From contig OX439035.1 in NCBI GenBank assembly GCA_949317995.1, positions 76,716,394-76,780,393 of the forward strand: a stretch of DNA of 64,000 nt. Reading direction: 5' to 3'. Positions within the stretch are counted from its first letter, which is position 1. Each line of letters opens with the position of its first letter. The notes beneath the pieces were generated by a model. The model had not been told where the DNA came from, searched no databases, and saw only the letters and a program-made list of their open reading frames with translations. Positions 5,967 to 62,615 of the stretch are shown one piece after another. Position numbers and translations under genes: made by a program. This stretch comes from Acholoe squamosa. Taxonomy: Eukaryota > Annelida > Polychaeta > Phyllodocida > Polynoidae.

Positions 5967-6180
5967 GAAATGGTTATGTCACCATGTCGATTTCAAGAAA
6001 TTGTTCATGTCACCATGTCAATTTTAAGAAATCTTTTCATGTCCCATGTCACTAAGTCTAAAATAGCCCATGTCACCATATCAATTTTAGTGGTCCACAC
6101 CCATGCAGGTCCTTATCATGTTTTTATTTTATTTCTATACTTTTAAGGCTGTCCTCCATTCCGTCTGTGAATTTTCCAAA

Positions 6181-9100
6181 ATGGCACTGTTAGGTAAGTA
6201 CAATCATATATTCTCTGTTACTCTGGATTATTTGAGAATCAGTTTATAAAGGGTTTAAAAGTTAAATCATGTTTGGGTAGCATGCATAGTAAACATTGTA
6301 TATGAAGGAAATAAATCTACATCTTTTGTCTCATGACTCTTTTGGGTACGTCAATGCCCTCGGGGCCTTCAAAACCTAGACAATGCCCTTAGGGCCTACA
6401 TCTTTAGCCTCATATTTCTATTTTTATGATGCCCTCAGGGCTACAATCTTTTGTCTCATGACCCCCCCCCCTCTAAAGAAATCGGATACACATGTGAAAT
6501 GATGCTTATTAGAATGAATACAGTATAGGATAGGCCAATGCCCTGGGGGCATCCTAGACAATGCCCTAAGGGCCTACAGCTTTTTTCTTATCATTATAAA
6601 CTTAGTTCCGCCAACCTCTATGTACCCTACTTTTTAATCTACAGATGACTTCTCAACAATCGAGCTAATAGAAGCTACGGCTGATGAAAAAGATCAGACA
6701 TTAGACTCCATCTTGGAGATTTGTGAGAAGGCTAGAAGTTTGTATAAAAGTACCAAGAATGAAGGTCAAGGTGAGCTTATCAAATGGCATCTGTTGCACT
6801 TGTATATATAATCTTTTTTTTAAACCATCAACTAACACTTTCTTATTTTCATCCCATGCCCGTGCCCACATCTATTTATCTTACATATACCACCACAAGT
6901 CTACAAGCATCCTTCTTTAACATCATCCTACATGATTGAAATTTCACATGTCTGCAGTTAGAAATTCTTTATTGTTATTTGCATTGTCAAATCAAGACTG
7001 TACTCTACATAAATTAATCATATTTTAATAACATTTCCTTTTTCAGATCTCCCAACTGACCAACTTTTATGCAATGAGGAAATAAAGCTGTGCTTTGAAA
7101 GGATGCAGGAAATAAGGAACACTTATCTTCTCTCATCCGGTGAGTAACTTCTTAAAGGTGATGAAAATGAAAATTTTTATTCATTCTTAAAATCACTTTT
7201 ACATGATTTCCCTTCATCCTGTGTGTTTTTGTAGTATTATATTATGCAATTTATAAGAAAAGAAAAGGTTTTTACCACTATGCAATAGATCTGCTTCTTT
7301 CAATTAAGGTGTGCGCTGCCCTACCCCGTCCACCTTGAAACAACAGTTGTCTGGCAGCTCTGAGAGCAGTGACAGATTACGCACTAATATTGCTGTGACA
7401 GGCTTACAGATATATGAACCCATATCTGGAGATGGGAACTGTTTCTTCCGTGCCATTTCAAGTCAGCTCCGCCGGATTGGTGAAGCTCAGATAGGACATC
7501 AACAACTACGAGCAGAAGTTGTTACAAGTCTGAGAGCAAATACTTTGATTCTAGTAAGTGTATAAAGTGTCATCTATACAGCATAAACTGTATGGGGAGG
7601 CATTCACCTCATAAACTCTTGAATGGTGCATCCATACCACTTATGTAGTACTTGCATATAACACACATCCTGAAATGGTGCTAGACTCTTTTATCTGCAC
7701 CTTGACTTATTTTTTGGACAATTTTCTACTCTTGTCTACATGATTATTAAATACCTGTTGTATATGGTACAAATACCCTGACCTTAAGGGTAACCTTAAA
7801 GTGAAAGCATCGTTTGTCTTGTATTTTTATTGGGCAAGTCAATGCCCTAGGGGTATTCACTGCCTACACGATGCCCTTAGGGCCTTCATTATTTGTCCTA
7901 TATCTCTATTACCGTAAATCCTCATGTATAGGATGCGCCCAGACTTTGTTGACTTTTCACCCATATACTCTACACACCATGTCCTCAGGGCCTTTATCTT
8001 AATTCTCATCACTTTAAACTGTAGGCCAATGCCCTGGGGGCCGCTACTGCCCACTTGATGCCCTCAGGGCCTTCACTATTTGTTTTATATCTGTATTAGG
8101 TAGGCCTGTGCTCTTAGGGTGTCTGCTTTACACAAAATGCCCTCATGGCCTTCATCTTTGGTCCCATATTTTACAATTCTGCTCAAATGCCCCGAAAATA
8201 TGTTGTAAGTTTCAGGTAGCATGGTCTAAAATGTTGAGGTAGGTAGGTAGGAAGATTTCTTTGGTGAACTATGTTTGCAAATCCTCTAGATATTAGATAT
8301 CAGAAATAAATGTGATACAATTATGAAAAATATTAAAAAGAATATTAAAATATTCTTCAAATCTTCAAAAATATCTCAGGTCGCCCCCTTTTCCTGAGGT
8401 AGGTCGGGTGGCTGGAAACCAAATATTTTTCTTTGGCCTGGAATTTACATTGGAATAGACTAAAGTAGTACAAAATGTACTTTGTTATTTTTTTCTGTTA
8501 TTGCAGGTAGAAGATGTCCAAGTCGATCTTGCACACTTTATGACTGCATCCACAGCTGAGTACTGCAACAGGATGTCTCAAGATGGTGAGTGGGCTGACC
8601 ATATAGCCGTGATGGCCACAGCACACTATCTTCACAGAGACATTCTCATAGTGACTAGCTCCCCAGATGCTGGACCCGAAAATGTCGTATCTTGGGTAGC
8701 TGGGAAACCAGGGTTTACCGGGGATCCTCTTCTGCTTGGCCATGTGTGGGAGAATCACTATGAGTCCCTAACACCAAAAGGTATGAAACAAAGGTATACT
8801 TTGTAATCAAACATGGCATGGCATGTAGCACTAACAGTATTAAATATCTCGTCTAACCAAAACTGTAAAATGGCAAATCTAGTGATTTTGACAGGCAGTT
8901 ATTAGGAATTTAACTAACAGCTTGCTCCAAACTTATTCACCAGACTGACTTTCTCTTTAATGTTTATCCCTTTTTCTAGCGACCGAAAGCAGAGCTGGTG
9001 ATATGAGCAATACAAGCAGAATTAACCCCTTTGGTGTTAACAATGGAACTGACAGTGTGACTGATCAAGATGTACCTGCAGTAAATACGCATCATAGAAA

Positions 9101-12100
9101 AGGTATGTATCGTAATCTCCTGCGTATAAAACGTGTATAAGCCGGGGGTCATTATTTTTGTTCAATAAGATTCATATGTCAGATTGTATCTCCATTTCTA
9201 TATGGAATATTAATAGAATTCCTTCAGTTCTACTGTTCCCAAAGAGAAATCAAGAGTAAAGGGATAAGAATACTATTAGAAATATTCCAATAAATGTATT
9301 ATAACCACGAAAAGGTTAGAAGGTACCAGAGTCAATTTGGAAGTATATAAATACAGGCCTGGCCGGTGAAAAGGTGCAGGATACAACTTGTTACATCGGT
9401 CTATGCCCTGGGGGCATTCAGCGCAGCTCCCTGTGGTGACACATATATCATATATTTTCGGGACTGCCGGGCGGATTTACGCAGGCCCTGAGGGCATATT
9501 GCTGGGCCTCTAGAAATCAGCAATTTACGAATGCTAATCTATGCCCTCAGGGAATGCCGTATTCATATTTAGCCTAGATGAGTGGAGTGGAGGCCCCGGG
9601 GGCATTGACGGCATCAGTAATGCCCCCGGGGCATGCTGTCATCATTTCTGGACTATTAGATCCTTGGGAAATTAATAGCACTAGTGATGCCCCCAGGGCA
9701 TCACATGGTGGTTTTTTTCTGCACTGGCCCTTGTAATGGCATGATGCGCGAAGCGTCATCTATCATATTGAATTGTAACTACTGGAAGTTGAGTGATAAT
9801 ACATGAAGTAAAAGTCAGTCTAGCATGAGGCACCAAAATGTAAAGTCTTGGTTCTTCCTTCTACTCTTTACAGTCATGGGGGGCAAGGATAGAACCAGCG
9901 ATGCCCCCAGGGCAATAGTCTTACATATGCAAGAAATGCCCCTGGGGGCATACGCTGACAGTCCTACAAGTTTGGGGTTGATTGACCTAAAAGCCAAATG
10001 GTAAATGACGGGGGACCACCCCCGAAAGTAGGTCATGAGGGGTGCGTTAGGTTGCTAACATTTATCTCTTACTACGTCTGCCCATATGCCAGATTCTTTG
10101 AAGATTCAGCGAAAAGGTGACCAAATGTTACAATTTTAGGGGGCATATATAAAGGTTTATTTTGGGGGCATTTTAGATTCAAAAATTTGAGTGGGGGTTA
10201 GTTCTTAACTCTATATCTGTTTTTCAGCGGTACTGAACGCATCGCTCATGACCTGCTTTTGGGACTGGTCCCCTCTCATTTACCTTAAAAGCGCGGCCTT
10301 GATTGATGCCCCAGGGGCATCGGTGCGAGGTGCCCCTAGGGCATGCCATACTCATATATAGTACCATATTTATATAAACATGTAGGAAAGGCCCTGGGGG
10401 CATAGACAGCGAGAGTAATGTCCCCTGGGCCTGCTGTACTTCTCCATAGCCTAGATGAGTAGGGAAGATGCCCCGGGGGAATTGAGGGCATCAGGAATGC
10501 CCCCGGGGCATGCTCAAGTGATATCTAAATTGGAGGAGTAGGGAAGATGCCCCAGGGGCATTGACGGAAGGCCCCTGGGGCATGCCGTTCCGGTAGTTGT
10601 GTCATAGAGTTATGGTTACTCAGTGTAAGTGCCAAACATCTTCTAAGAAATGAGCATCTAGCTCTATACTGTGTTGGGAGAGTGATGCGTAATTTCCGTA
10701 GGTAATACAAATACTGTAGTATTTTGGGTAAAATAACCCTACCCTTGCCTCATATAATGCCTTATAGGTGAGATATTGATTGTCTGAAATAGTACTAAAG
10801 CAAAAATAACTCATCACATAATCTATAGGATTTATGTTGCACCGTGATTGTGCCTACCATACTTTCTCTCCCCACAGATCAGCCAATGTATGATCCTGAT
10901 GCTGCCTTCAAAGCTGTCATCCGAAAGAAGTTTTGCCGTAACCATGGCAATGAAGGAATTGAGATAGAGAGACTCGAGTAAGTGCATATACGCAGCATAT
11001 ACATTGTCCACTTAGTTTAGTGTGTCTTATCAAGTAATCACCACAGTTTACAATACTTTTAACTTCTTTCCATACTGGAGATCAGGTTGCACCTTTAAAC
11101 ATAATGCATATTCTTTCTTCAATTAGCTGTATTGTGTTTTCACCCATATAGCATCCCAATCTACATGTCCATGCTTATTGTCAATCTTTCATTGATCTAG
11201 GGGTAATCTAGAGGACTTCATCTGTAACTACCTAGAAAAACTTTATGTCCTTGGTAAAGGCAAATTCTCCTCTCGACTACATAGATGCAATGAAACAACA
11301 CAATACTACTGTGAAAGGTATACTGTTAATATTTTTTACTAGTGACATATCATGACTTATCTACCGTGAAAAAATGATACAAAGCCTTTATTCTAATTCA
11401 TTCTATGTGTTTATCATTTTTCTATTCAGTACATGACTGCACACTTATACACTACTGTCTTTATAATATACCTATACATGGGACATCGGATGCACATGGG
11501 TCCCACTAGGCAATTACGTGAAATGTCCGTTCTGTTCCTATGCAGGCATAGAAACCCCACAGGGAAGAAACGTGGCCCCACACAAACCCGATGTAACAGC
11601 TGCCCTGCTTATGTCTCTTTCAAGTAAGCCCTGACTAGCCAACATTTTAAAGCTTTCTTTACATGTCATTGATAAATAGTCTAATACTTTTGAAACAATA
11701 CACACACCCACAGCAGTTTAGTCACTACGCAAGTATCTGAAGTGTGTAGTTGAGTCACAACACCGATCATGCTCAAAAGGTAGTCTTTACCATCACACTA
11801 GTCTCTGGGAGATCATTCAAAAATTAGAATCTAACTGCTGTCTTCTTTTGTTTGAACAAGGAGTGTGGAACTTAATGGGAAGAAGGCGGTGATTTTACGT
11901 TCAAAGTTGCAGCATGAAGGTCATAATCTTCATAATCCAGAGGAGAGGCATGTGGCTCCACTTCATCCAGAACTAGTTACTCTCATTCAATCATTAGCTG
12001 AGGTATGTAAATTGTAAATGTGGTCATAAGCCTTCTGTGCCTGCTACGCATTTTATCCCCAGGACCTTTCTCTTTAGGCAAAGGCCCTCCGAACATGCAG

Positions 12101-14249
12101 ACTATATACAATGCCCCCAAGGCATTTCTCTTTATGCAAAAGCTTTTGGGGCATCTAGAGTATACACAATGCCCCCGGGCTTTGAGCTTTTGTCTAATGC
12201 TTCCATTGTGTAGGCTAATGCCCCTACGGCATCCAAACAATACATAGGCCTTTCACTTTAGACAAAGGCCCTAGGGGCACCAATGATGGCACTAGTGCTA
12301 ATACCTTTTTGTCTCACTTCTCAATAATTGTGTAGGCTAATTCCCTCAGGGCATCCACTTTAGACACAATGCCTCCAGGGCTTTTCTCCTCAGGCAAAGG
12401 CCCTGGGGGCATTCACACTATGCACAATGACTCCAGGCCATTTCTCTTTAGGCAAATGCCCTTGGGGCATCCAGACTATACACAATGTCCCCAGGGCATT
12501 CATTTTTTGTTTGATCCTTCGCATTAGTAAGGCCAATGCCCTGAAGGCTTCCACCTTGGACACAATGTCCCCAGGGCTTTTCTCCTCAGGCAAAGGCCCT
12601 TGGGGCATTCACACTTTACATGTACACAATGCCCCCTAGGCATTCATCTTTTGTCCCATTTAGCAGATACTCACACTCTGTTTTAAAACTGATTATTTTT
12701 GTAGGGGAAGACATGCACACAAATAATGGCTGATTGTCTGGTTTGGGCTAAGGACAGTGGCAAGGAAGATATTCATGACCGCAGGTATTACCCTTTACCA
12801 AAAGATGTTCAAAAAGTAGTAGCTGCGTACAAAGCATCCAAACGGTAAGCAATTAGTATCAAATAAACATACTAAGCACACATTCAATATAATATTTCTT
12901 AAATGGTGAGTAAAGCATGCAATAGGCAGGCACTTAATGCTTATCTCTTAATATCTCATTAATAGGGAGGCTACTAAACCACATACTCGAACATGGGATG
13001 GCCGAACTAGTTACCTAATATAAGTAAAGCATGATGAACATTTTTCATGAAATTATAGTATGGAAATATAAGATCAGATACAGGTTTACTTTGGCACCTA
13101 TTAGAAGACACTGGACTCTTTGAATGAAATCCTTGTAACAAATGAAGATATGTATACATAGCACGTAATGTGTATAACTTTTTTCAGGTATCATGCAGAT
13201 GATTCCGTAGCAGTAGGGATTCTGTGCACACATATCCTGAAGGATAAAATTATCTTGTACCAGCCACTTGACAGGTAAGTCAGTAAAGTGCTTGAAATAA
13301 GTCGTTCGGCCATTTTCTAGACCAATGAGTGGACTCTAATGTGTTGCCTTTATGTCATGGTTTTTGTGCATCAAAAAGATGCAGTGTAAATCCGCTGCTG
13401 AACTTTGGGATCAGAATTTATCAGCTGCCACTCTATATGTATCTATAAACCTCTTATCATTATGTTTTTGTAACACTTAGTTAATCTACACTTACAGGTC
13501 AATAGGACAACAGTTGTTAATTGTGTATCAAGACGAAAAGCAGCTTGAACGTATGAGAAAATATGGAGAACAGGTTGTCTTCCTTGATGCCACTTACAAA
13601 GGTCAGCATCTATCCGATCTGTTAACAAAATAGTAACAGTTTTGCTATGACGAATAGTTTCTGAGTATTAATGCATCATTCATTACAAGTGAGGTATCAT
13701 TTGGATTATGGCTGCCTTGATTTTCAGTCTGTAAATAACCAATAAATTGGGTGAAAGTGTACCAACTAAAATATGAGATTAGCAATACATCATGTCTGTA
13801 GTTGGAAGGATGACATGGTGTATAAACATGTAACTGTTATGTCTCAGCAGGTGTTCCTAATCATCTCTTTTCATTACAATCTCCTAGGCATAACATCTTA
13901 CGGCTATGCCTTCTACGCGTTAATCGCAAAGACAGAGACAGGGCATGGAACACCACTATTTTATGTCATTGCATCTGAGGACTCTGCCCCTCTTCTGGAG
14001 AAGGCACTGCGGAGTGTCAAGGACAGTGCTGATAAACAAGGAATCGTCTTCTCTCCAATGTATGTAAAAGAGGTTATGTGTTTATGCTGCTTAACAGCAG
14101 AATGGTGTTGCTGTTTGTAGTAATTTTATTTATATAAGACTGCACAGCCGTACCTTCAGCAGGCTAGCGTTTTATCAAGGACTGTGCAGTTTCTTTTATG
14201 GCATACAAAGTACCATCTTAAAAGAGGAAACTTATTTTATATGTATTCA

Positions 14250-14302
<53 letters not shown>

Positions 14303-17300
14303 CCAGTCTCCAAAATGATGGTCTGTTCTGGAATTGCATGTTTCTTCACAGGTCATTCATGGTAGACAAGGACATAAAGGAGCATCTGGCCATAAAGGCT
14401 GTATTTCGCGAGGCCAACATCCTCCTATGTTGGTTTCATGTTCTACAGGTGGGTGTTTGTTTAACCTTGTATCAGAATCAAAAGAATTACTTGCTAGTCT
14501 CACCTTGTTTTGTGTAAAATCCCCCAGTGTCTGTTCAATACTTGGCACACATATATAAGGTATGATCTGCATAGAGGTTGCCAAAACCTCAGATGATGCA
14601 TTGAATGCAGGGTACTGCAGGACTTAAAGCAGAATTTTCTTTTTTCAGTATTTAATATCATTAATATGTTTTTATGTATCAGGCCATATACCGTTGGCTC
14701 AACAAACATGATTCTGGCATCTCTGGAGCAGATAATGCAGAAACACGAAAAGGTGTCATCACCTACATACGGAAGATGAAGAACTGCACCGATGTAAGTT
14801 GTTTTCAAATACTTTATTAGTAACTGTCATCATTCCTTCTTCCTTAGCATACCGTAAATCCCCGGTCATAAGCCGGATTTTTTTTTCTATTTTGGGCCAA
14901 AACCGGTTTCTAAATTTTTCCCAAAGTCCCCCCCGGCTTATGACCGGGGTTTTACAAAAGTTTAAAAGTTTTTGAACCATATGTTAATAGAAATCAATGT
15001 AAATAAATAATTAAGACTGATAATTTATTCTGATAGTTCATTTTTAGGTCTGTTATATAATAAATCAATCAAACCACATAGCTAACAGAGAGAAATGCCT
15101 GTGTAAAATGCTCACACTTTCCACAAAACTGCCCCAAAGGAGGTGAGATTTTTTGGTCTTAGGGGGGGTAAGGGGGGTCAGGGCCCCAAACTAGCCCCCC
15201 GGCTTATGACCAGGGTTTTGCAAAACCTTAAAATGGACCAAAACCGGCTTCTATATTTCTGCTGAACTCACCGGGGTTTTACAAAAGTTTAAAAGTTTTT
15301 GAACCATATATTAATAGAAATCAATGTAAACAAATAATTAAGACTGATAATTTATTCTGATAGTTCATTTTTAGGTCTGTTATATAATAAATCAATCAAA
15401 CCACATAGCTAACAGAGAGAAATGCCTGTGTAAAATGCTCACACTTTCCACAAAACTGCCCCAAAGGAGGTGAGATTTTTTGGTCTTAGGGGGGGTAAGG
15501 GGGGTCAGGGCCCCAAACTAGCCCCCCGGCTTATGACCAGGGTTTTGCAAAACCTTAAAATGGACCAAAACCGGCTTCTATATTTCTGCTGAACTCACCC
15601 GGCTTGTGACCGGGGATTTACGGTACTTGGTATACTTATTCAAAATGCACCAGTACAGTGTCATTTTACTCATTTAATAATCTAAGTTGGTTCTATCCCA
15701 TGAACTTAAATGGTTAGTTAATTTCAGTATGATTTTCTATGTTGTATAAATCGAATTTGTTAAAGTCAATGTGTGACACAGCACACAGGTTCCCCACATC
15801 TCACGGAAGGTCATGGAGTTAAGAGAAATAAAATGTAAATGTAAAAAGGAAATTTGCTAATGAGTCATGGAAACTTGAAAAGCTGAAATTTTGTAGCAAA
15901 ATATGATAACTAATAATTTAAATATTTATCCACTACAGGTCTCTGACTTTCTTGAACTCAGTCAGCAACTGCCCAATGAAATGCCAACTCGTGCAGTGGC
16001 CACATACCTTGAGAACAACTGGGTTACATGTGGGAAGATGTGGGCTAATTATGGACGGAGAGTGTACCACGGAGACCACGAGACCAACAACTTGGCAGAA
16101 AGGTTAGCACTTCTCTCATAAAAGAGCTCTGAATCTGGACATGGTCTATTCCCATTCTACTTACCGGTACCATATCTCTTCAGTGAGACATTCCAATGTC
16201 AGTCATGTTTAACCAAGTAAATATAACAGATTATTGTTTCATACATGCCATTTATTATCCAAAATCTTAATACAGGTTTTTTCTGGGCCTCAAGTACCAT
16301 CACCTGGCACGACAGGCCAATAAACGAGTGGATGATCTCCTCATCAAACTCTCTGTTCAAGTCAACCCAACTTATGAGTAAGTACCATAAATTATTCCCA
16401 TTTAGAAACTGTACCAGCATATTAGCCACACCCTGAGCATTTTGGGAATTTTAACTTGGGTATCCATTTGTGACACACATATTGTACAATTGCAGCTACA
16501 TTGAGGCACTGGGTGCCATTGGAAGGCTGGGTAAGAAGAAGGCAAGTAGGAAGAGGAAACAAACAGATGACCTTGTGCAATCCATGCTCCAGCAGGGATG
16601 GGAAGAAAAGACATGGTGGCTACCCGACTTGCGTTGCCTGGTCCCATCACAACATGAGGCAGAAAAAGCTTATGAAGTGGACCTTCTACATGGTACTTGT
16701 GAGTGCATTGCTGCATCACAAGAGGGTAAGCTCTTTCAATATGCATGTATCAAATCAGGCATTGGGGGAGGTGGGGGCCAACAGCAGCATTGTATGGTAC
16801 AGAAACCACATGCACTGGCAGGATCCTGTAGGTGCCTGCCCACTCCCAGAACACAGTTTTGCAGCCTGGCCTATGCCCCTGGGGCCTCTTCCCCACTCCT
16901 GCAGGTTAGAAAGAACTACAGCATGCCTCAGGAGCATTGCTCATGCAGTCAATGCCCCTGAGGTCTCTTCTTTACCCGTCTAGGCTATAAAGAAGTACAG
17001 CATGCCCCAGGGGCAGTACTGATCCCGCCTATGCCCCTGGGGCCTCCTTACTTGTCTAGGCTTAATAGAAATGATGACATGCCCTAGGAGCATCAGTGAA
17101 GCCACCAATGCACACAGGGCATCCTCTACTTACATGGGTTAGACATGACAACAGCATCATACCCCAAGGGCATCAGTGGAGCCAGCCCCCAGGGCATCCT
17201 GTGGTTCTATGGTTAAAAATGACAACTTGCCCAGGGGCATTAGATGAGCCATTGATGCCCCATTGATATGCTGAATTTATAGATAGTTTGTTGTAAACCA

Positions 17301-17973
17301 ACTCAAAATAATTAGTTAATATTGTATATATTGAACTAAATATTATTCTTATTGCATCCTTACAGGTCACTGCAAACACTATCGTTTGGCACTCATCCTT
17401 GCTAGCCTTCGTGAAATTGATGTGATGGGGGCTCGTGAAACCAGGGCAAGTGAATTATATCACAAGTGTAGCTTCTTAGAGGCTGAGGGATCAATTGAGG
17501 TCTATGATGACAATTTTATTGGCTATGTGCAGATTGAGTCAAGGCGATGTGTCTGTGTTGCATTCAGCCATGGGATTGAATGCATATGTGTGAAAGTGGC
17601 AGCGATGGTGTATCCACCAAGTGACACATGGACATCACAACCTTCAGCCCATCATGAAGCAGAAACCACCTCTGCACATGAGGACAACCATGATGAAACA
17701 ACAGTGCAGCAGTTACGAAAGATGCTGGAAGCTTTTGAAGGCCAAGGATGCATTGTTAACAAAAGGAAAGCTGCTGATTACATAGACTCAGCATACAAAG
17801 CTATGTATAGTACCCACACCAAAAATACGAATGCAAACAAGATCCATCCTCTTGTAACTGGTCGAAAAATTTCAAAAAGGAAGAGAGAGAACAATTCATT
17901 TTCACCTCGGGTGAGCAAAGTGAAGAAATCTAAGCGTTTGGCAGATGGGGGTGCCCGCATGACAAATAGATAA
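6181..17973 (+). CDS. OTU-MULE-SWIM fusion protein, 20 exons
   Basis: Rebuilt exons: 6181-6193, 6645-6770, 7047-7139, 7309-7553, 8507-8780, 8980-9102, 10878-10977, 11201-11317, 11546-11623, 11861-12002, 12705-12844, 13188-13274, 13498-13601, 13888-14059, 14352-14448, 14683-14793, 15939-16102, 16276-16377, 16496-16725, 17366-17973. They sum to 3126 bp (1041 aa plus stop). Every junction is GT/AG and in phase. Order: acidic leader (1-77), OTU protease (about 110-250), zinc cluster (354-414), MULE DDE core (513-760), SWIM (831-844), second SWIM-like motif (901-914), basic tail. Nuclear-localisation-like basic runs lie at 776-784 and in the last 60 residues. The start ATG (6181) follows AAA and sits in a 13-bp exon with a strong donor; a start in exon 2 is not excluded. 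The likely origin is a Mutator-like transposase joined to a deubiquitinase-like protease. The domain calls are firm; the cellular role is unknown. Confidence 0.9.
6346..6595. repeat. AP-2-like palindrome cluster, gene 1 intron 1
   Basis: Several imperfect copies of TGCCC-N3-GGGCA lie between exons 1 and 2, spaced 30-60 bp apart, in non-coding sequence. They belong to the same family as the clusters at 7840, 9400, 12047, 16870, 19788 and 22790-27620. Confidence 0.7.
7309..8780 (+). other. OTU cysteine protease domain (exons 4-5 of gene 1)
   Basis: Exon 4 encodes the hallmark SGDGNCFFRAIS with the nucleophile Cys122, preceded by Asp119. Exon 5 ends with WENHYESL, placing the catalytic His at 243. 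Spacing and motifs match OTU-family deubiquitinases (known family). The intron between the exons is phase 0 and about 950 bp, carrying several TGCCC-N3-GGGCA palindromes. Both catalytic residues are present, so the protease is probably active (inference). Confidence 0.9.
7840..8165. repeat. AP-2-like palindrome cluster, gene 1 intron 4
   Basis: About eight imperfect TGCCC-N3-GGGC copies within the intron that splits the OTU domain. At 7910-7935 there is also a half-copy of the TACCGTAAATCC terminal motif seen in the TIR element at 14850. Confidence 0.7.
9400..10580. repeat. AP-2-like palindrome cluster, gene 1 intron 6
   Basis: The longest intron of gene 1 (9103-10877) carries more than a dozen ATGCCC...GGGCAT palindromes in irregular spacing, with three semi-repeated blocks around 9590, 10440 and 10530 that share a GAGTAGGGAAGATGCCCC-like lead. 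No ORF or exon evidence is seen in between. Confidence 0.75.
11201..12002 (+). other. FAR1/FLYWCH-like zinc cluster (exons 8-10 of gene 1)
   Basis: The segment has Cys354 and Cys362, then Cys380-x2-Cys383, then His408, His411 and His414 in the context HEGHNLHN. This order of cysteines followed by clustered histidines, just N-terminal to a MULE core, is that of the DNA-binding zinc modules (FAR1, FLYWCH, WRKY-GCM1 type) of Mutator-like transposases. Which residues bind zinc is inferred. It probably recognised transposon ends originally. Confidence 0.65.
12047..12650. repeat. AP-2-like palindrome cluster, gene 1 intron 10
   Basis: About 20 palindrome copies at 25-45 bp spacing. They alternate with TCTCTTTAGGCAAA and ACACTATACACAATG linkers, making a degraded tandem array. 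The short ORFs on both strands here come from the repeat. Confidence 0.75.
14250..14298. repeat. (AT)n microsatellite
   Basis: An almost pure TA dinucleotide run in the intron between exons 14 and 15 of gene 1. Confidence 0.95.
14850..15625. mobile_element. TIR element with internal 327-bp duplication
   Basis: Starts TACCGTAAATCCCCGGTCAT and ends with the inverted counterpart GACCGGGGATTTACGGTA; TA at each end fits a TA target site. No ORF. Two nearly identical 327-bp direct repeats start at 14944 and 15271, each ending before a CCGG(C/G) border. It lies wholly inside gene 1 intron 16, so it should be removed by splicing. Its superfamily is uncertain. Confidence 0.75.
16496..17973 (+). other. 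SWIM zinc finger plus second SWIM-like motif (exons 19-20 of gene 1)
   Basis: A SWIM finger is split across the last intron: Cys831-x-Cys833-x8-Cys842-x-His844, in the context CECIAASQEGHCKHYRL. Sixty residues on, Cys901-x-Cys903-x8-Cys912-x-Cys914 repeats exactly the same spacing with Cys in place of the final His. The last ~130 residues are polar and basic, with lysine/arginine runs suited to nuclear import or DNA contact. The intron at 16726-17365 is full of AP-2-like palindromes. Confidence 0.85.
16870..17260. repeat. AP-2-like palindrome cluster, gene 1 last intron
   Basis: Imperfect ATGCCCC-N-GGGGC copies spaced about 30-50 bp apart with linkers such as TCTAGGCT, in the intron that splits the SWIM finger. 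Confidence 0.7.
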
Positions 17974-18196: not shown

Positions 18197-18626
18197 GTCA
18201 ACAAAGATGTGTCCAGGGTATTGGGTCCTTGCCTTGATCCAGATAAAAGTTAAAACAGAGTTAAACTAAGTCCTCAGAGTATTTTGTATTAACCTATGTT
18301 GACAATGTGACACAATATCTACACTTTGTCATTGTACTATGTTTCTATGTTGTGATATTAACTCAAAATATGAATTTTAGGCATGTCCCATTGCACCAGA
18401 CTTCAGAATATGCAGGCCAGATTGTGCAGCATTCAGTTCTTATCACGTTATAGTAGCCAGGAAATTAATGATGATAGTTCGGCCCTAAGGGCATTCTTTT
18501 GTAGCTGCTTTAACTATACTTGCACTATATCAAGAACAAATGGCGCAACTGTAACATACTTAGTTGATGTACATAGTAGATACACAGTTATTTCCATGTA
18601 ACTGCCACTTTAATATATTTTCTTCA

Positions 18627-18632
18627 ATAAAA
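18627..18632 (+). terminator. Candidate polyadenylation signal, gene 1
   Basis: AATAAA on the plus strand about 650 nt after the gene 1 stop codon, the first strong signal after it. It ends before the gene 2 stop codon at 18714. Confidence 0.5.
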
Positions 18633-18713: not shown

Positions 18714-21190
18714 TCATACTGTCTGTGGTTCAACAGCAACCTTGGGCTTGGGTCGAAACCCAAGGCACCTTTTAAAGACCTGGATGACATTTTCCATTAT
18801 TGTTATTCCGCCATGGGTTGTTATGTTGAAATTCGCGCCTTCATTTCTAAGCCCCATCAGAAGAGCGTCAAGGACATCACTGTTGAAAGAGAGAGAAACA
18901 GAAGTAAACAATAAAGGTTTTACATATCATGTTTAGTATACTGAATTTCAACTACTGTGATGTCATTTGTATGACACTGGGTAACATTGCCAAAACCTCA
19001 GATGAATTATTGTGCACACATAAGACATTTATCCTTTGTGCTGTGCACTCAAATGATTAAAAACACCATCCTTGTAGGATTGCTGAAAGATTTACGACTA
19101 CTGTTATACCTTGACGAATGATTTTTTGTAGAGTCTAAGTTCTTAGGGGAACAAAGATCATTAGAACACATATTGCAATACCTTTTTTGGTGACTGAATA
19201 ATAGGTGTGAAAACTTGAAATGGTACTTACACACTTTGTCTAATGGCAGTATTTGCCTCCTGTCCAAATTTCTCGGTCAGGGACTGTTTAACGAGTGAAA
19301 GCACAGTTTCCTCCTTCAGATGCTCCTCGGCGAGGAGGTTCAGCCCAACACCAAGGGTATTTACATCCTCTTTAAAGTTAAATACAATCAACAAATTATG
19401 TTTTAGTCATAACATAAAGAAATTGGCAAAAAATAACAGACATAAAGATCCCAGATATTCAAATTGTGATGAAATTTTCCAGATCGCCAAGAAATCTATG
19501 CAGTTACTACAGATGCACAAAACTTTTATGCACAATAAAAATGTGTCTATAACCATGTATGGTTGACTTTTGAAAGTTAGAAATGGATGTCAAGACAAAC
19601 CTTCACTGAGCAGGGAGTAGCATGTTGGTGGTGATGGAAACTTGCCTTTCGGGACAAGCTCCACCAGGCGGTGGAGCTGCTCCTGGTCATGGTTCTTGTC
19701 TAGAAAGATAGATGACTTTAATATCATTGAATATATATGATAAAATTTGAGAGGCCAATGTCTGTTTTAGAAAATTCACAGAAAGGATGATGTCCCCAGG
19801 GCATGCATAGTTTCATTACATATATAGGAGGTAGGACACAATGCCCTCGGGGCCTTCCTGGAAAGGATGATGCCCCCAAGGTCATGCATAGATATCTTTA
19901 TATGTTTAGGAGGTAGGACAATGCCCCCAGGGCATTCACGGAAAGGACGATGCCCCCAGGGCATGCATAGATATCTTTACATGTATAGGAGGTAGGACAA
20001 TGCCCCCAGGGCATTCACGGAAAGGACGATGCCCCCAGGGCATGCATAGATATCTTTACATGTATAGGAGGTAGGACAATGCCCCCAGGGCATTCACGGA
20101 AAGGACGATGCCCCCAGGGCATGCATAGATATCTTTACATGTATAGGAGGTAGGACAATGCCCCCAGGGCATTCACGGAAAGGACAATGCCCCCAAGGCA
20201 TGCATAGATATCTTTACATGTATAGGAGGTAGGACAATGCCCCCAGGGCATTCACGGAAAGGACGATGCCCCCAAGACATGCATAGATATCTTTACATGT
20301 ATAGGAGGTAGGACAAATAGCCTATTAAAATGCAGAAGATCTGTAAGTTAGAAGCAGGTTTAAACAGGATAATTGATGGGAGAAAACCATTCTGGAAAGA
20401 AAAATCCAGAAGTCTCCCGGCAAATGCTTGGATGTGTTAACATACAGTGAGAAGGCAGTGCTAAGTAACATTGACCAAGATAGATGGAAATATTAGAACA
20501 TATACCCTGTCAGAACAAACTGGCAGACATACATCTAAAATGAAAAAACACAGACTGAGAAAATTACAGTTTATGCACATTTGTATCTCAAGGATATTAG
20601 TGGCAGATTAAATCTTACATCCAACCCTGAACTTGACACCATGGTAAACTGAGGTGATATAAGATGTACAATTGGAAATGCTGCAATGTCATGACAATTA
20701 AAATGCCTACCATTCGTTGAAGTTTTCCCAATACAGAGTAGGTGCCGGAGGACTGTTTTGGCATGGAGGGACTCTGGCGGGCCCACACGACGGATCAGCT
20801 CTGCACCAGTGAAGGTGACCAATGGTGGGGAGGTGTTAACTGTAGTTGTTCTGACCTTACTTGGTATGAGTCTCAATTCTGTTAATGTATTGAAGAAAGA
20901 AGCACATTAGACTCATTCTGGCTGCTTGAGTCAAAGTGAAACTAAAAGTATTGAGAATAGGGTACCAGAGTATATATAGTAAACAGCTCTTGGTTAAAGT
21001 TTTATAAGGTGTGGGTTATATGCAGATTTACAGTTATGTGAAAGTTTTTCCCTTTCATACAAGCAGAAAGGATAATATTAAGATGAAAAGCTTTTGCATT
21101 AGTTATAACTATATTTCATATGACTGGACTCACTTGCTGTGCGCAGCTCCTCCAATGTTTTGATGGCTGCCCAATCACTCATTCCTTCTT
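18714..21190 (-). other. C-terminal exons 9-13 of gene 2
   Basis: Five exons give residues 409-617. Open phases are forced: exon 9 (21190-21134) is free of stops only when it receives one base from the exon before. The product is rich in leucine, glutamate and lysine, compatible with helical bundles, and ends KPKVAVEPQTV. No catalytic or metal-binding motif is seen. A loose resemblance to helical DNA-binding domains such as BEN was considered but not established. Confidence 0.75.
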
Positions 21191-24100
21191 CTGGAATTGG
21201 CAATGGAAATACTTGTGAAACCCTTCACACTAAAATGTTTATTTTGTGCTAAATACAGTAGAATATGGGAACATGGAATACCTGGTAGCTGTGTTCCTCA
21301 CACCTATCATGTAATAACCCCTCATCAATATTACACAATATAGTTTTTTTTTAAAGATTTCTAACTGTAATAACTATCAAACAGAAATCTTGATAAGAAG
21401 TAGTCATTTCTCATGCACATGTCTATTTATCCTAATTTCATATAACATCAGGAAATATTTGACCAATAACTTTATGGTGAATAAAGTAATCAATTATTTA
21501 TGTCCTTTTTATGTGCTCATTAGTTATTGTGGCATGTGCAACTTTTGTCCTTGACAGTGCCATGATAACAGAGAAAAGGAGGAAAATTTAGAGGAAAAAT
21601 ATGATAACTGACACAAGGGTGAATTTGATGGATAAGGGAAATATTTTGATTTAAGTAGTTGAGGTGAAATATTTTGTATTGGATAATGATATTTGTTCAT
21701 GTATGTAAATACGAGCAAGCAACAGTAGACATAGATTTAGACAGCACTTTTAATGGTGAAGAATGTGGCCCTTGGCTAAAGCATGGGCTGGATACAGCAG
21801 AAGCACCATTATATTATTGGGTACAGAACATGTTGCGTACAGCATCCACACCAAAAACATGATAGACCTGGATCAAACTTGAAAAAAGCTATCTGATATT
21901 CAGAATGGAAAGAAAAGCAAAATGAAGAGGAAATCCATAGCCTTGCTGCATTAGGTTTATCCAAGTAACTGACAGATTCATTATTTATCATTTTACTTGA
22001 CAAGGAGAATGGGTTAGAAGCCTGTTTGAATATGGTAAAGGGTGCATCCTACACTCTGTAGTAGATATGTTTAATACTTATTAAGAGTGCAAAAAGGAAA
22101 ACGCTTGACAATGTGTATATGTTGCAAAGATAATATCCTAGTTAAATTGTTAAGTACTATCCCTACCACCACAAATCCATTATGAGAAAGTGTTGGCTTT
22201 TTTATACTTACAAGATAGCCTGTCAGTCTGCAGTAAACATGAACATTTCATGACATATTCACAATTTGAGTCTATTTGTAGTACTTTAATACCCCACATA
22301 TAAGGTGCACCCCACATATAAGGCAACTTTATGGACATGATAGAAAAAATTAAAGATCACATAACTTTTGTTCTAATCAATGGATCTTCAAAATTTAAAG
22401 ACCTATGGCCATTTTAGAGTTTCCCCAACCCCCCTCCCCCTTTCCCTTTCCCATTGTAAGGGGATGGGGTATACACGAGGTATTGCAGTATTTGTACAAT
22501 GTCTTCCACATTCAATGCAATATTGAGAGGAAATGTCAAACAAATTTCATAAAAAACTGGGTACTTACGCCCTTTGAGGGTACTTTTCGGAACAACAGCT
22601 TTGACAGTTTCCTGAACTTCATCTGCTTCCTCGATTTGATCATCTTTCTGGTTTTGGGACTTGGCTGTTTCAGGCGCCTGCTGAAGTGTTGCCACCTTAC
22701 GTTGCTTCTTTACTGCGCAATAGAAATTAGAGTGTTAGAAACAAAGTGCTTGAAAATCTGTGCATGTACAGGAGGTAGGACAATGGCATTCAAGGACAGG
22801 ACGATGCCTCCAGGGCATGTACAGATATCTTTACATGTACAGCACGTAGGATAATGCCCCTAGGGCATTCACAGAAAAGATGATGCCCCTGGGGCATACA
22901 TAGATAGCTTTACATGTACAAGAAGCAGAACAATGCCCCCAGGGCATTCACAGAAAAGACAATGCCCCCAGGGAATGTACAGATATCTTTACATGTACAG
23001 GAGGTAGGACAGTGCCCCCAGGGCATTCTCGGTAAGGACAATATCGATGGGGCAGTCACAGATTGCATCAAAGGGTTTTAAATCCAGTATAGACATGATA
23101 CAAAAAAATACAAATGACATAATTTTTGTTCTAATCAATGGATGTTCAAAATTCAAAGACCTATGGCCATTTCAGAGTTTCCCCAACCCCTCCCCCCCCG
23201 TCCCCCTTTCCCATTGTAAGGGGATGGGGTATACACGAGTTATTGCAGTATTTGTAAAATGTCTTGCACATTCAATCCAATAGTGAGAGGAAATGGTAAT
23301 CAAGTGTCATAAAAAAATTGGGTACTTACACCCTTTGAGGGTACTTTTCGGAACAACAGCTTTGACAGTTTCCTGAACTTCATCTGCTTCCTCGATTTGA
23401 TCATCTTTCTGGTTTTGGGACTTGGCTGTTTCAGGCGCCTGCTGAAGTGTTGCCACCTTACGTTTCTTCTTTACTGCGCAATAGAAATTAGAGTGTTAGA
23501 AACAAAGTGCTTGAAAATCTGTGCATGTACAGGTAGGACAATGGCATTCAAGGACAGGATGATGCCTCCAGGGCATGTACAGATATCTTTACATGTACAG
23601 CACGTAGGATAATGCCCCTAGGGCATTCACAGAAAAGATGATTCCCCTGGGGCATACATAGATAGCTTTACATGTACAAGAAGCAGAACAATGCCCCCAG
23701 GGCATTCACAGAAAAGACAATGCCCCCAGGGAATGTACAGATATCTTTACATGTACAGGAGGTAGGACAGTGCCCCCAGGGCATTCTCGGTAAGGACAAT
23801 ATCGATGGGGCAGTCACAGATTGCATCAAAGGGTTTTAAATCCAGTATAGACATGATACAAAAAAATACAAATGACATAATTTTTGTTCTAATCAATGGA
23901 TGTTCAAAATTCAAAGACCTATGGCCATTTCAGAGTTTCCCCAACCCCTCCCCCCCCCCCGTCCCCCTTTCCCATTGTAAGGGGATGGGGTATACACGAG
24001 TTATTGCAGTATTTGTAAAATGTCTTGCACATTCAATCCAATAGTGAGAGGAAATGGTAATCAAGTGTCATAAAAAAATTGGGTACTTACACCCTTTGAG

Positions 24101-27100
24101 GGTACTTTTCGGAACAACAGCTTTGACAGTTTCCTGAACTTCATCTGCTTCCTCGATTTGATCATCTTTCTGGTTTTGGGACTTGGCTGTTTCAGGCGCC
24201 TGCTGAAGTGTTGCCACCTTACGTTTCTTCTTTACTGCGCAATAGAAATTAGAGTGTTAGAAACAAAGTGCTTGAAAATCTGTGCATGTACAGGTAGGAC
24301 AATGGCATTCAAGGACAGGATGATGCCTCCAGGGCATGTACAGATATCTTTACATGTACAGCACGTAGGATAATGCCCCTAGGGCATTCACAGAAAAGAT
24401 GATTCCCCTGGGGCATACATAGATAGCTTTACATGTACAAGAAGCAGAACAATGCCCCCAGGGCATTCACAGAAAAGACAATGCCCCCAGGGAATGTACA
24501 GATATCTTTACATGTACAGGAGGTAGGACAGTGCCCCCAGGGCATTCTCGGTAAGGACAATATCGATGGGGCAGTCAAAGATTGCATCAAAAGGGTTTTA
24601 AATCCAGTATAGACATGATACAAAAAAATACAAATGACATAATTTTTGTTCTAATCAATGGATGTTCAAAATTCAAAGACCTATGGCCATTTCAGAGTTT
24701 CCCCAACCCCTCCCCCCCCGTCCCCCTTTCCCATTGTAAGGGGATGGGGTATACACGAGTTATTGCAGTATTTGTAAAATGTCTTGCGCATTCAATCCAA
24801 TAGTGAGAGGAAATGGTAATCAAGTGTCATAAAAAAATTGGGTACTTACACCCTTTGAGGGTACTTTTCGGAACAACAGCTTTGACAGTTTCCTGAACTT
24901 CATCTGCTTCCTCGATTTGATCATCTTTCTGGTTTTGGGACTTGGCTGTTTCAGGCGCCTGCTGAAGTGTTGCCACCTTACGTTTCTTCTTTACTGCGCA
25001 ATAGAAATTAGAGTGTTAGAAACAAAGTGCTTGAAAATCTGTGCATGTACAGGTAGGACAATGGCATTCAAGGACAGGACGATGCCTCCAGGGCATGTAC
25101 AGATATCTTTACATGTACAGCACGTAGGATAATGCCCCTAGGGCATTCACAGAAAAGATGATGCCCCTGGGGCATACATAGATAGCTTTACATGTACAAG
25201 AAGCAGAACAATGCCCCCAGGGCATTCACAGAAAAGACAATGCCCCCAGGGAATGTACAGATATCTTTACATGTACAGGAGGTAGGACAGTGCCCCCAGG
25301 GCATTCTCGGTAAGGACAATATCGATGGGGCAGTCACAGATTGCATCAAAGGGTTTTAAATCCAGTATAGACATGATACAAAAAAATACAAATGACATAA
25401 TTTTTGTTCTAATCAATGGATGTTCAAAATTCAAAGACCTATGGCCATTTCAGAGTTTCCCCAACCCCTCCCCCCCCGTCCCCCTTTCCCATTGCAAGGG
25501 GATGGGGTATACACGAGTTATTGCAGTATTTGTAAAATGTCTTGCACATTCAATCCAATAGTGAGAGGAAATGGTAATCAAGTGTCATAAAAAAATTGGG
25601 TACTTACACCCTTTGAGGGTACTTTTCGGAACAACAGCTTTGACAGTTTCCTGAACTTCATCTGCTTCCTCGATTTGATCATCTTTCTGGTTTTGGGACT
25701 TGGCTGTTTCAGGCGCCTGCTGAAGTGTTGCCACCTTACGTTTCTTCTTTACTGCGCAATAGAAATTAGAGTGTTAGAAACAAAGTGCTTGAAAATCTGT
25801 GCATGTACAGGAGGTAGGACAATGGCATTCAAGTGTAGGGGCTCATAGATCGTGATATAGTGTGAGCGTCTTCCTCGAGAGGGTGTTTCGAGCAGTGCGC
25901 CCATCACCGGTAGTCACTAGAGGTCCTTACGACCCCTGGTCGCTGCGGTGTGGTGGCAGCACTGTTCGCCTCGCTCCAGCTCCTACCTGGGGCCGGGGAA
26001 GGCGTTAGTCTGGCTCTGCCTGTCGATGGTGATGGACCACTTTTCATCGAGCTTAACATTTGATTAGGCAACCTATATCGAGGTAGATGTGAACCATACA
26101 CCGAAATAAACATGTGCCAGTTGCACTAACCCGAGATCCCTTGTCTGGTTTTCACTTCGAACCATTCGAGTTATTCATTTGAACCACTACACAAGGACAG
26201 GACAATGCCCCCAGGGCATGTACAGATATTTTTACATGAACAGAACTTAGGATAATACCCCTAGGGCATTCACAAAAAAGATGATGCCCCTGGGGCATAC
26301 ATAGATAGCTTTACATGTACAAGAAGCAGAACAATGCCCCCAGGGCATTCACAGAAAAGATGATGCCCCCAGGGCAGGTACAGATATCTTTAAATGTACA
26401 GGAGGTAGGACAGTGCCCCCAGGGCATTCTCGTAAGGACAATATCGATGGGGCAGTGACAGATTGCATTAAAGGGTTTTAAATTAAGTATTAGAAAGTTT
26501 TGGCTTTTATATACTTGCAAGATATGTCAGTGTTCAGTAAGCATTCTATGAACATTTTCAACAATTTGAGAATTGGGTAAAATCTTCTATTTGTAATACT
26601 TTAATACCTGACATATAAAGTGCACCCCACATATAGGGCAGACCTAGACTTGATACAAAAAATACAAATGACATAATTTCTGTTCTAATCAATGGATGTT
26701 CGAAATTTAAGGACCTATGGCCATTTCAGAGTTTCCCCAACACCCCCCCATCCCCCTTTCCCATTGTAAGGGGATAGGGTATACACGAGGTATTGCAGTA
26801 TTTGTACAATGTCTTGCACATTCAATCCAATATTGAGAGGAAATGGTAATCAAGTGTGATAAAAAATTGCGTACTTACACCCTTTGAGTGTCCTTTTCTT
26901 AAAAGCTTGGACACCTTCCTGATCATCATCTGCTTCCTCATTTTGATCTTCTTTCTGTTGTTGGGAGTTGGCTGTTTTAGGCAACTGGTGAAGTGTTGCC
27001 ACCTTAGGTTGCTTCTTTGCTGTGTCAGAATGATGCACTCCGGATTTAGCAACTACATTGAACAGAAATTAGAGTGTAAGAAACAAAGTGCTTGAAAATG

Positions 27101-48687: not shown

Positions 48688-62615
<13,928 letters not shown>

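Follow-up and report, generated by a model that had tools for sequence, protein, structure and literature searches.

Proteases acting on ubiquitin or SUMO have turned up repeatedly in transposons of unrelated kinds, where what they do is not settled. Among MULE transposons, MuDR-6_HM of group 14 (from Hydra; host Cnidaria) is tabulated with an "Ovarian Tumour Gene" (OTU) as one open reading frame without terminal inverted repeats, and several MULE groups are listed there as lacking such repeats (Dupeyron et al. 2019, Table 1, PMC6446971). Bao et al. (2010, PMC2836005) place OTU or Ulp1 at the C-terminus of Ginger1 transposases, OTU in some Helitrons and Ulp1 in some MULEs, and suggest for them a role in transposition or repair. 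VTD deubiquitinases are described as carried on Helitrons and later domesticated in PMC9741609, according to which viral and transposon OTU domains had not been assayed for catalysis. MULE-derived FHY3-like genes, related to the FHY3/FAR1-type transcription factors, are described for several animals in PMC10027918, with no occurrence of OTU in its main text. Here we describe a 20-exon gene on the forward strand (6181-17973) of a 64,000-nucleotide (nt) stretch of the Acholoe squamosa genome (the window; C1:76716394-76780393), predicted to encode an OTU domain, a zinc cluster, a MULE core and SWIM-like motifs in one protein. Judged from the sequence, we consider it, with a probability of roughly 0.6, to be a host-resident gene derived from a MULE transposase, to which an N-terminal OTU-type deubiquitinase was added and whose product would act as a DNA-targeted deubiquitinase.

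The window gene resembles MuDR-6_HM in combining MULE and OTU and differs from it by its 20 exons, its SWIM-like motifs and its few copies; MuDR-6_HM is tabulated as a transposable element with no zinc finger listed, and the two were compared by description, not by sequence. The Ginger1, Helitron and MULE-Ulp1 cases likewise join a DNA transposon enzyme with a ubiquitin or SUMO protease, but they involve another transposase superfamily or protease family, and OTU is C-terminal in Ginger1 whereas it is N-terminal in the window gene. The VTD proteins share the theme of a deubiquitinase thought to be spread by transposons and then domesticated, and they belong to a different protease family and transposon class. 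With the FHY3/FAR1-type proteins the window protein shares the MULE-derived core and probably DNA binding, whereas it has no FAR1 or FLYWCH Pfam match and carries the added OTU. The likeness to ZSWIM1/ZSWIM3 consists of PF21056 scoring above its cut-off and a SWIM-like motif downstream, while the helical domain PF21600 stays under its cut-off; to our knowledge, OTU is not part of ZSWIM1/3. No host OTU-MULE gene was seen in the open-access literature on the level of titles and abstract starts, by which absence from print is not established. One candidate paper used OTU for operational taxonomic unit, and a soybean bacterial artificial chromosome candidate held otubain-like annotations only. An OTU-MULE fusion is already known from the Hydra transposon listing, and the multi-exon conserved gene family looks like a new form of it. 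The preliminary description of the locus had expected the fusion to be an unusual chromatin or genome-defence factor; in view of MuDR-6_HM, Ginger1, the Helitrons and MULE-Ulp1 the combination is less unusual, and it is the 20-exon, low-copy, diverged and conserved family that is less ordinary.

Rebuilding the gene yielded 3126 nt encoding 1041 amino acids (aa) plus stop, with no internal stops and GT-AG borders at 19 of 19 introns, in agreement with the earlier claim that all exons join in phase to one 1041-codon frame. The frame runs from an ATG at 6181, likely the start of the gene, to a stop ending at 17973. When ranked among every GT or AG in the window by approximate weight matrices, the splice sites came out with all 19 donors at or above the 86th percentile and the 19 acceptors between the 57th and 99.9th. 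Pfam matches span proposed junctions, with OTU (aa 118-213) crossing aa 159/160 and MULE (aa 539-637) crossing aa 548 and 605. The exons are given below together with their support, which includes two diverged OTU-bearing paralogs (E and F) and three OTU-less paralogs (A, B and C), described further on.

6181..6193 (+): exon 1 (aa 1-4, ATG); donor GTAAGT, similar 13-nt exon in paralog F
6645..6770 (+): exon 2; gene rebuild, tblastn and exon models in E and F
7047..7139 (+): exon 3; gene rebuild, tblastn and exon models in E and F
7309..7553 (+): exon 4, first half of OTU with D119 and C122 (SGDGNCFFRAIS); Pfam, genome OTU search, paralog models
8507..8780 (+): exon 5, second half of OTU with H243 (WENHYESL); Pfam, genome OTU search, paralog models
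8980..9102 (+): exon 6, low-conservation linker from OTU to the MULE part; putative counterparts in both E and F
10878..10977 (+): exon 7, from which the region common to the OTU-less paralogs begins, holding M295; rebuild, paralog models
11201..11317 (+): exon 8, zinc cluster C362; rebuild, paralog alignment
11546..11623 (+): exon 9, zinc cluster C383 (and C380); rebuild, paralog alignment
11861..12002 (+): exon 10, zinc cluster H408/H411; rebuild, paralog alignment
12705..12844 (+): exon 11; rebuild, paralog models
13188..13274 (+): exon 12; rebuild, paralog models
13498..13601 (+): exon 13, RNase H-like core, D543; rebuild, Pfam, paralog models
13888..14059 (+): exon 14, RNase H-like core; rebuild, Pfam, paralog models
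14352..14448 (+): exon 15, RNase H-like core, D610 and C631-x2-H634; rebuild, Pfam, paralog models
14683..14793 (+): exon 16, part of the D610-E728 stretch; rebuild, paralog models and alignment
15939..16102 (+): exon 17, up to NNLAE with E728; rebuild, paralog models and alignment
16276..16377 (+): exon 18; rebuild, paralog models and alignment
16496..16725 (+): exon 19, C831 and C833 as the first half of SWIM-like motif 1; motif, paralog alignment
17366..17973 (+): exon 20, remainder of SWIM-like motif 1 (C842/H844), a degenerate second motif (CxCx8CxC, aa 901-914), the basic tail and the stop
18626..18631 (+): candidate polyadenylation signal AATAAA; motif only

Analysis of the window protein by hmmscan confirmed the two proposed enzyme domains above their Pfam cut-offs, OTU with 1.7e-15 (58.1 bits, cut-off 23.3) and MULE with 2.7e-10 (41 bits, cut-off 27.6), and added ZSWIM1-3_RNaseH-like (PF21056; 9.2e-10, 39 vs 27.2 bits). 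Peptidase_C65 and ZSWIM1-3_helical (PF21600; 13.3 vs 27.3 bits) scored under their cut-offs, and the hidden Markov models for FAR1 and FLYWCH, which had been suggested at the outset, gave no match at E <= 10 with the whole protein or with its segments alone. The catalytic residues are found at the positions first assigned to them, Cys122 and His243 of OTU (in DGNC and NHY, together with D119) and Asp543/Asp610/Glu728 of the DDE core; all are kept in three of three OTU-bearing copies, so that both active sites are complete as claimed. D119, C122 and H243 are taken as the catalytic residues of OTU and, in line with the preliminary description, D543/D610/E728 as the MULE triad. The four-part composition given there holds for OTU and MULE by Pfam and is suggested for the zinc cluster and SWIM by conserved residues and a motif, not by Pfam. 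The zinc cluster (C362, C383, H408, H411) aligns in six of six paralogs. The SWIM call is based on the CxCx8CxH motif C831/C833/C842/H844 and on its alignment to a region of paralog A that matches PF04434 (2.6e-6). Among solved structures, the OTU part found weak matches, the best being 5jze (0.0052), an entry named RNA-dependent RNA polymerase and presumably a viral OTU, and OTUD3 (0.01); the rest of the protein matched nothing but proline-tRNA ligases, with values no better than 0.062, which we regard as chance hits. Six peptide patterns of the protein had no relatives in IMG/VR viral contigs, and Rfam gave no match in the window.

An OTU search of the whole genome (1.48 Gb in 63 contigs, labeled C1, C3, etc.) returned at least 70 matches, including the two OTU exons of the window. 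Pairs of matches split near the same profile position were located on C1 (83,088 bp downstream), C10, C3 and C5. Paralogs E (C10) and F (C3) show, by unconstrained tblastn, the same exon-by-exon chain as the window gene, repeat the order OTU-linker-zinc-MULE-SWIM and exceed the Pfam cut-offs for OTU (55.9 bits in E, 48.8 in F), MULE and ZSWIM1-3 RNase H-like. In E, 16 of 19 exons have the same length as in the window gene, the exceptions being exons 6, 8 and 14; F likewise agrees for 16 of 19 exons, all but exons 6, 14 and 20. In these exon models the window phases were imposed and the scoring leaned on window exon peptides, by which equal phase and length differences in multiples of 3 are given by construction, while equal lengths and stop-free exons are not. 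The 13-nt exon 1 is present in F (ATGGCACTTACAG, followed by GTGAGT) and was not found in E. Over 1032 aligned codons the identity amounts to 73.7% (window-E), 72.7% (window-F) and 79.2% (E-F), and the introns are not alignable between the window gene and E or F, with blastn pieces >60 bp only at exons 19 and 18. D119, C122, H243, D543, D610, E728 and C831/C833/C842/H844 are conserved in all three proteins, and H414 is replaced by Leu in E and F. The second SWIM-like motif reads CxCx8CxC in the window protein, E and F, and CxCx8CxH in the OTU-less paralogs. Five small stretches among the 70 matches, representing other OTU copies of the genome, were 22-27% identical to the window OTU. Two more split pairs stand in tandem at C15:59670451 and 59673902, 3.45 kb apart. 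Many OTU matches lie in single open frames of ~1000-2100 aa that look like transposon polyproteins, and OTU seems to be common in mobile elements of this genome.

Pairwise comparison of the three OTU-bearing copies revealed purifying selection on both the OTU half and the MULE half. Approximate ratios of nonsynonymous to synonymous divergence (Nei-Gojobori dN/dS) for window-E, window-F and E-F, respectively, were 0.158, 0.154 and 0.154 over the whole frame, 0.192, 0.167 and 0.259 in OTU, and 0.070, 0.084 and 0.080 in the RNase H region (aa 520-760). In the same order of pairs, Fisher tests of synonymous versus nonsynonymous changes gave p values of 1.3e-12, 5.1e-15 and 1.9e-8 for OTU and of 1.8e-41, 2e-37 and 4.4e-31 for the RNase H region. 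Few parts of the protein are as conserved as the latter, as would be expected if it serves in catalysis or has a strict structural role. For the linker the ratio was 0.541 (window-E), saturated (window-F) and 0.688 (E-F).

From the 36 MULE matches in the genome, 20 surroundings of 9.9 kb were taken for comparison. The window protein matched at E 1 or better in 16 of them, and in three, paralogs A (C10), B and C (both C6), the match reached beyond the RNase H region and its near surroundings. These paralogs encode the zinc cluster, the MULE core and two SWIM-like motifs, with D543, D610 and E728 aligned in all three; over 636-708 columns they share ~28% identity with the window protein, compared with 54-59% among themselves. 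By tblastn, no OTU was found in the 12.7, 13.7 and 8.7 kb upstream of the first ATG of A, B and C, two OTU pieces upstream of B lying on the opposite strand with E values of 1.3 and 3.0 and none occurring in A or C; a DGNC-type motif was not found upstream of any of them. The model of B holds one in-frame stop, and an open frame upstream of B, 1343 aa long, resembles the polyprotein of a retrotransposon. Four introns of the window gene (aa 605 phase 2, 638 phase 0, 675 phase 0, 729 phase 2) recur in A and C with column and phase unchanged. In B each of the four is shifted by one column, which we attribute to the aligner dropping its in-frame stop, and two further introns of A-C have no exact window counterpart. 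Considering these four common positions, the MULE part had introns before the OTU and OTU-less branches parted, and it is an old intron-bearing family.

The OTU-less paralogs at first gave strength to a reading in which two neighboring genes are present, the first an OTU gene that stops after exon 5 or 6, the second a MULE-SWIM gene starting from M295 in exon 7. A, B and C begin with an ATG near the place of exon 7 (8, 8 and 3 nt after an AG, respectively), M295 lies 8 nt past the exon 7 acceptor, and exon 5 of the window could extend to a stop at 8804-8806 with ATTAAA at 8839. Joint duplication of a two-gene block would preserve the order too, and the linker is poorly conserved with its phase in E and F imposed by the search. 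The reading lost weight because of E and F. M295 is present in F but absent from E (ELETHDPD), the exon 5 donor and exon 7 acceptor are equidistant from conserved residues in all three copies, and exons 5 and 7 of F are just ~0.8 kb apart; furthermore, the frame past the exon 5 donor stops at a different distance in each copy (after 2 codons in E, 8 in the window gene and 36 in F), and both E and F allow a linker exon to be modeled. Since the linker owes its phase agreement to the search, we moved this reading up slightly again, with the estimate for a DNA-targeted deubiquitinase going from 0.62 to 0.60, and we regard two separate genes as quite improbable. The OTU and MULE exons very probably form one fused gene, and a single transcript is expected to join them.

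With regard to copy number, querying the genome DNA with the last part of exon 20 of F plus its flank identified at least five places, on C3, C5, C10 and twice on C1; the family size is based on this search and the OTU search, both lower bounds. The second C1 copy (C1:76805600-76815599), 83,088 bp downstream, is identical to window 6119-16118 over 10,000 of 10,000 bp, and a 300-bp probe from past the gene (window 25000-25299) is identical there as well; probes placed for window positions 1000, 50000 and ~63000 match nothing in the window. This copy arose by recent segmental duplication or is an artifact duplicated in the assembly. F and its C5 copy agree at 300 of 301 positions in one stretch and at 299 of 299 at the start of F, ~2 kb (2.0-2.3 kb) upstream of exon 1, and are displayed as 100% identical (bits 1795 vs 1804) over 1000 bp reaching ~0.56 kb past the stop. 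The offset between the compared stretches changes by 841 bp, given which the missing matches of fixed-offset probes 20 kb upstream and 35 kb downstream of F are uninformative. The near-identical duplicates extend past the gene.

The spread of copies over C1, C3, C5 and C10, the DDE triad intact in the window protein, E, F, A, B and C, and the listing of OTU and MULE in one open reading frame for MuDR-6_HM would suit an intron-rich MULE transposon family with OTU as accessory enzyme, the copies being old, still-coding insertions. We consider this doubtful in view of the 19 introns, an exon chain kept among copies with synonymous divergence (dS) of 0.77-1.18, the five places (a lower bound) in 1.48 Gb, duplicates that run past the gene, purifying selection similar in every pair and the lack of a convincing inverted repeat bounding the gene. 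Window 1-24000 holds 36 inverted pairs, and of the 25 listed a single pair surrounds the gene (25 nt at 84%; 6157-6181 and 19765-19789). The left arm of this pair ends at the ATG, and the pair is probably due to chance. No inverted 14-mer is common to the 5-kb flanks of the window gene, and the short flanks hold one inverted 11-mer in E and none in F. The listed pairs and flank k-mers revealed no convincing terminal inverted repeats at the gene. Taken together, these observations favor a host gene family over a mobile element, although a relict or intron-rich transposon retains some probability.

For a host-resident, DNA-targeted deubiquitinase we propose that recognition of DNA or chromatin would fall to the zinc cluster together with the RNase H-like core and SWIM-like motif, and that OTU would remove ubiquitin from proteins bound at the recognized sites. 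The protein would in this way serve transcription, repair or the control of transposons. A nuclear location would be expected, possibly by means of a signal in the basic tail (KISKRKRE..). Domesticated transposases often lose catalysis, and the second SWIM-like motif is degenerate (CxCx8CxC) in the window protein, E and F; both points would agree with a catalytically inert scaffold using the two enzyme folds for binding only. Considering that the catalytic residues of both domains are kept in three of three copies despite dS near 1, we give such a scaffold little credence. At the other end, the DDE core may still cut DNA. A two-enzyme chromatin or genome factor, as originally imagined, is plausible and partly supported, whereas its full form, a working host factor of a small gene family in which an active deubiquitinase is steered to specific genomic sites by a still catalytic MULE core, appears improbable. 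If true, it might license DNA breaks or programmed rearrangement, or silence related transposons via removal of chromatin ubiquitin at the same site.

Several weaker points qualify the gene model and its interpretation. The reading frame stays open 5' of the window ATG, the zinc cluster is without any Pfam family in the window protein, and SWIM (PF04434) finds no Pfam match at E <= 10 in the window protein, whole or in segments, and none in E and F. Exon 6 is only 20-23% identical between the window and E or F (48% for E-F), with uncertain boundaries in E and F; unconstrained tblastn found no match for the linker (aa 251-291) there, and the counterpart was picked by eye and by exon-model search. 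With Fisher p values of 0.21 (window-E), 0.034 (window-F) and 0.37 (E-F), the linker is not clearly constrained, and since dS over the whole frame is high (0.77-1.18), the dN/dS ratios are approximate. The lack of terminal inverted repeats is weak evidence, given a MuDR-6_HM listed without them, 25 listed of 36 pairs and short flanks in E and F, and the intact DDE triad would be equally expected of a working transposase. With a conserved, low-copy and probably host-resident version whose two active sites are intact, the role of such proteases becomes testable, namely what benefit a deubiquitinase brings to a transposase and whether the host retains the combination for purposes of its own.

Besides the gene, the window contains minisatellite arrays (periods 58 and 79) of GCCCCCAGGGCAT-like palindromic units, situated in introns 10 and 19 and downstream of the gene:

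12349-12500: minisatellite array
16869-17046: minisatellite array
19774-20316: minisatellite array
22785-23042: minisatellite array
23571-23821: minisatellite array

Intron 16 carries a 327-bp unit twice at 99% (14943-15599). On the minus strand, exon-like open frames at ~18714-21224 may belong to a neighboring gene; the one piece of them searched, 20574-20906, gave no Pfam match. Further downstream, a leucine-rich repeat (LRR_6, 4.3e-5) at 56061-56390 on the forward strand is perhaps an exon of another gene.

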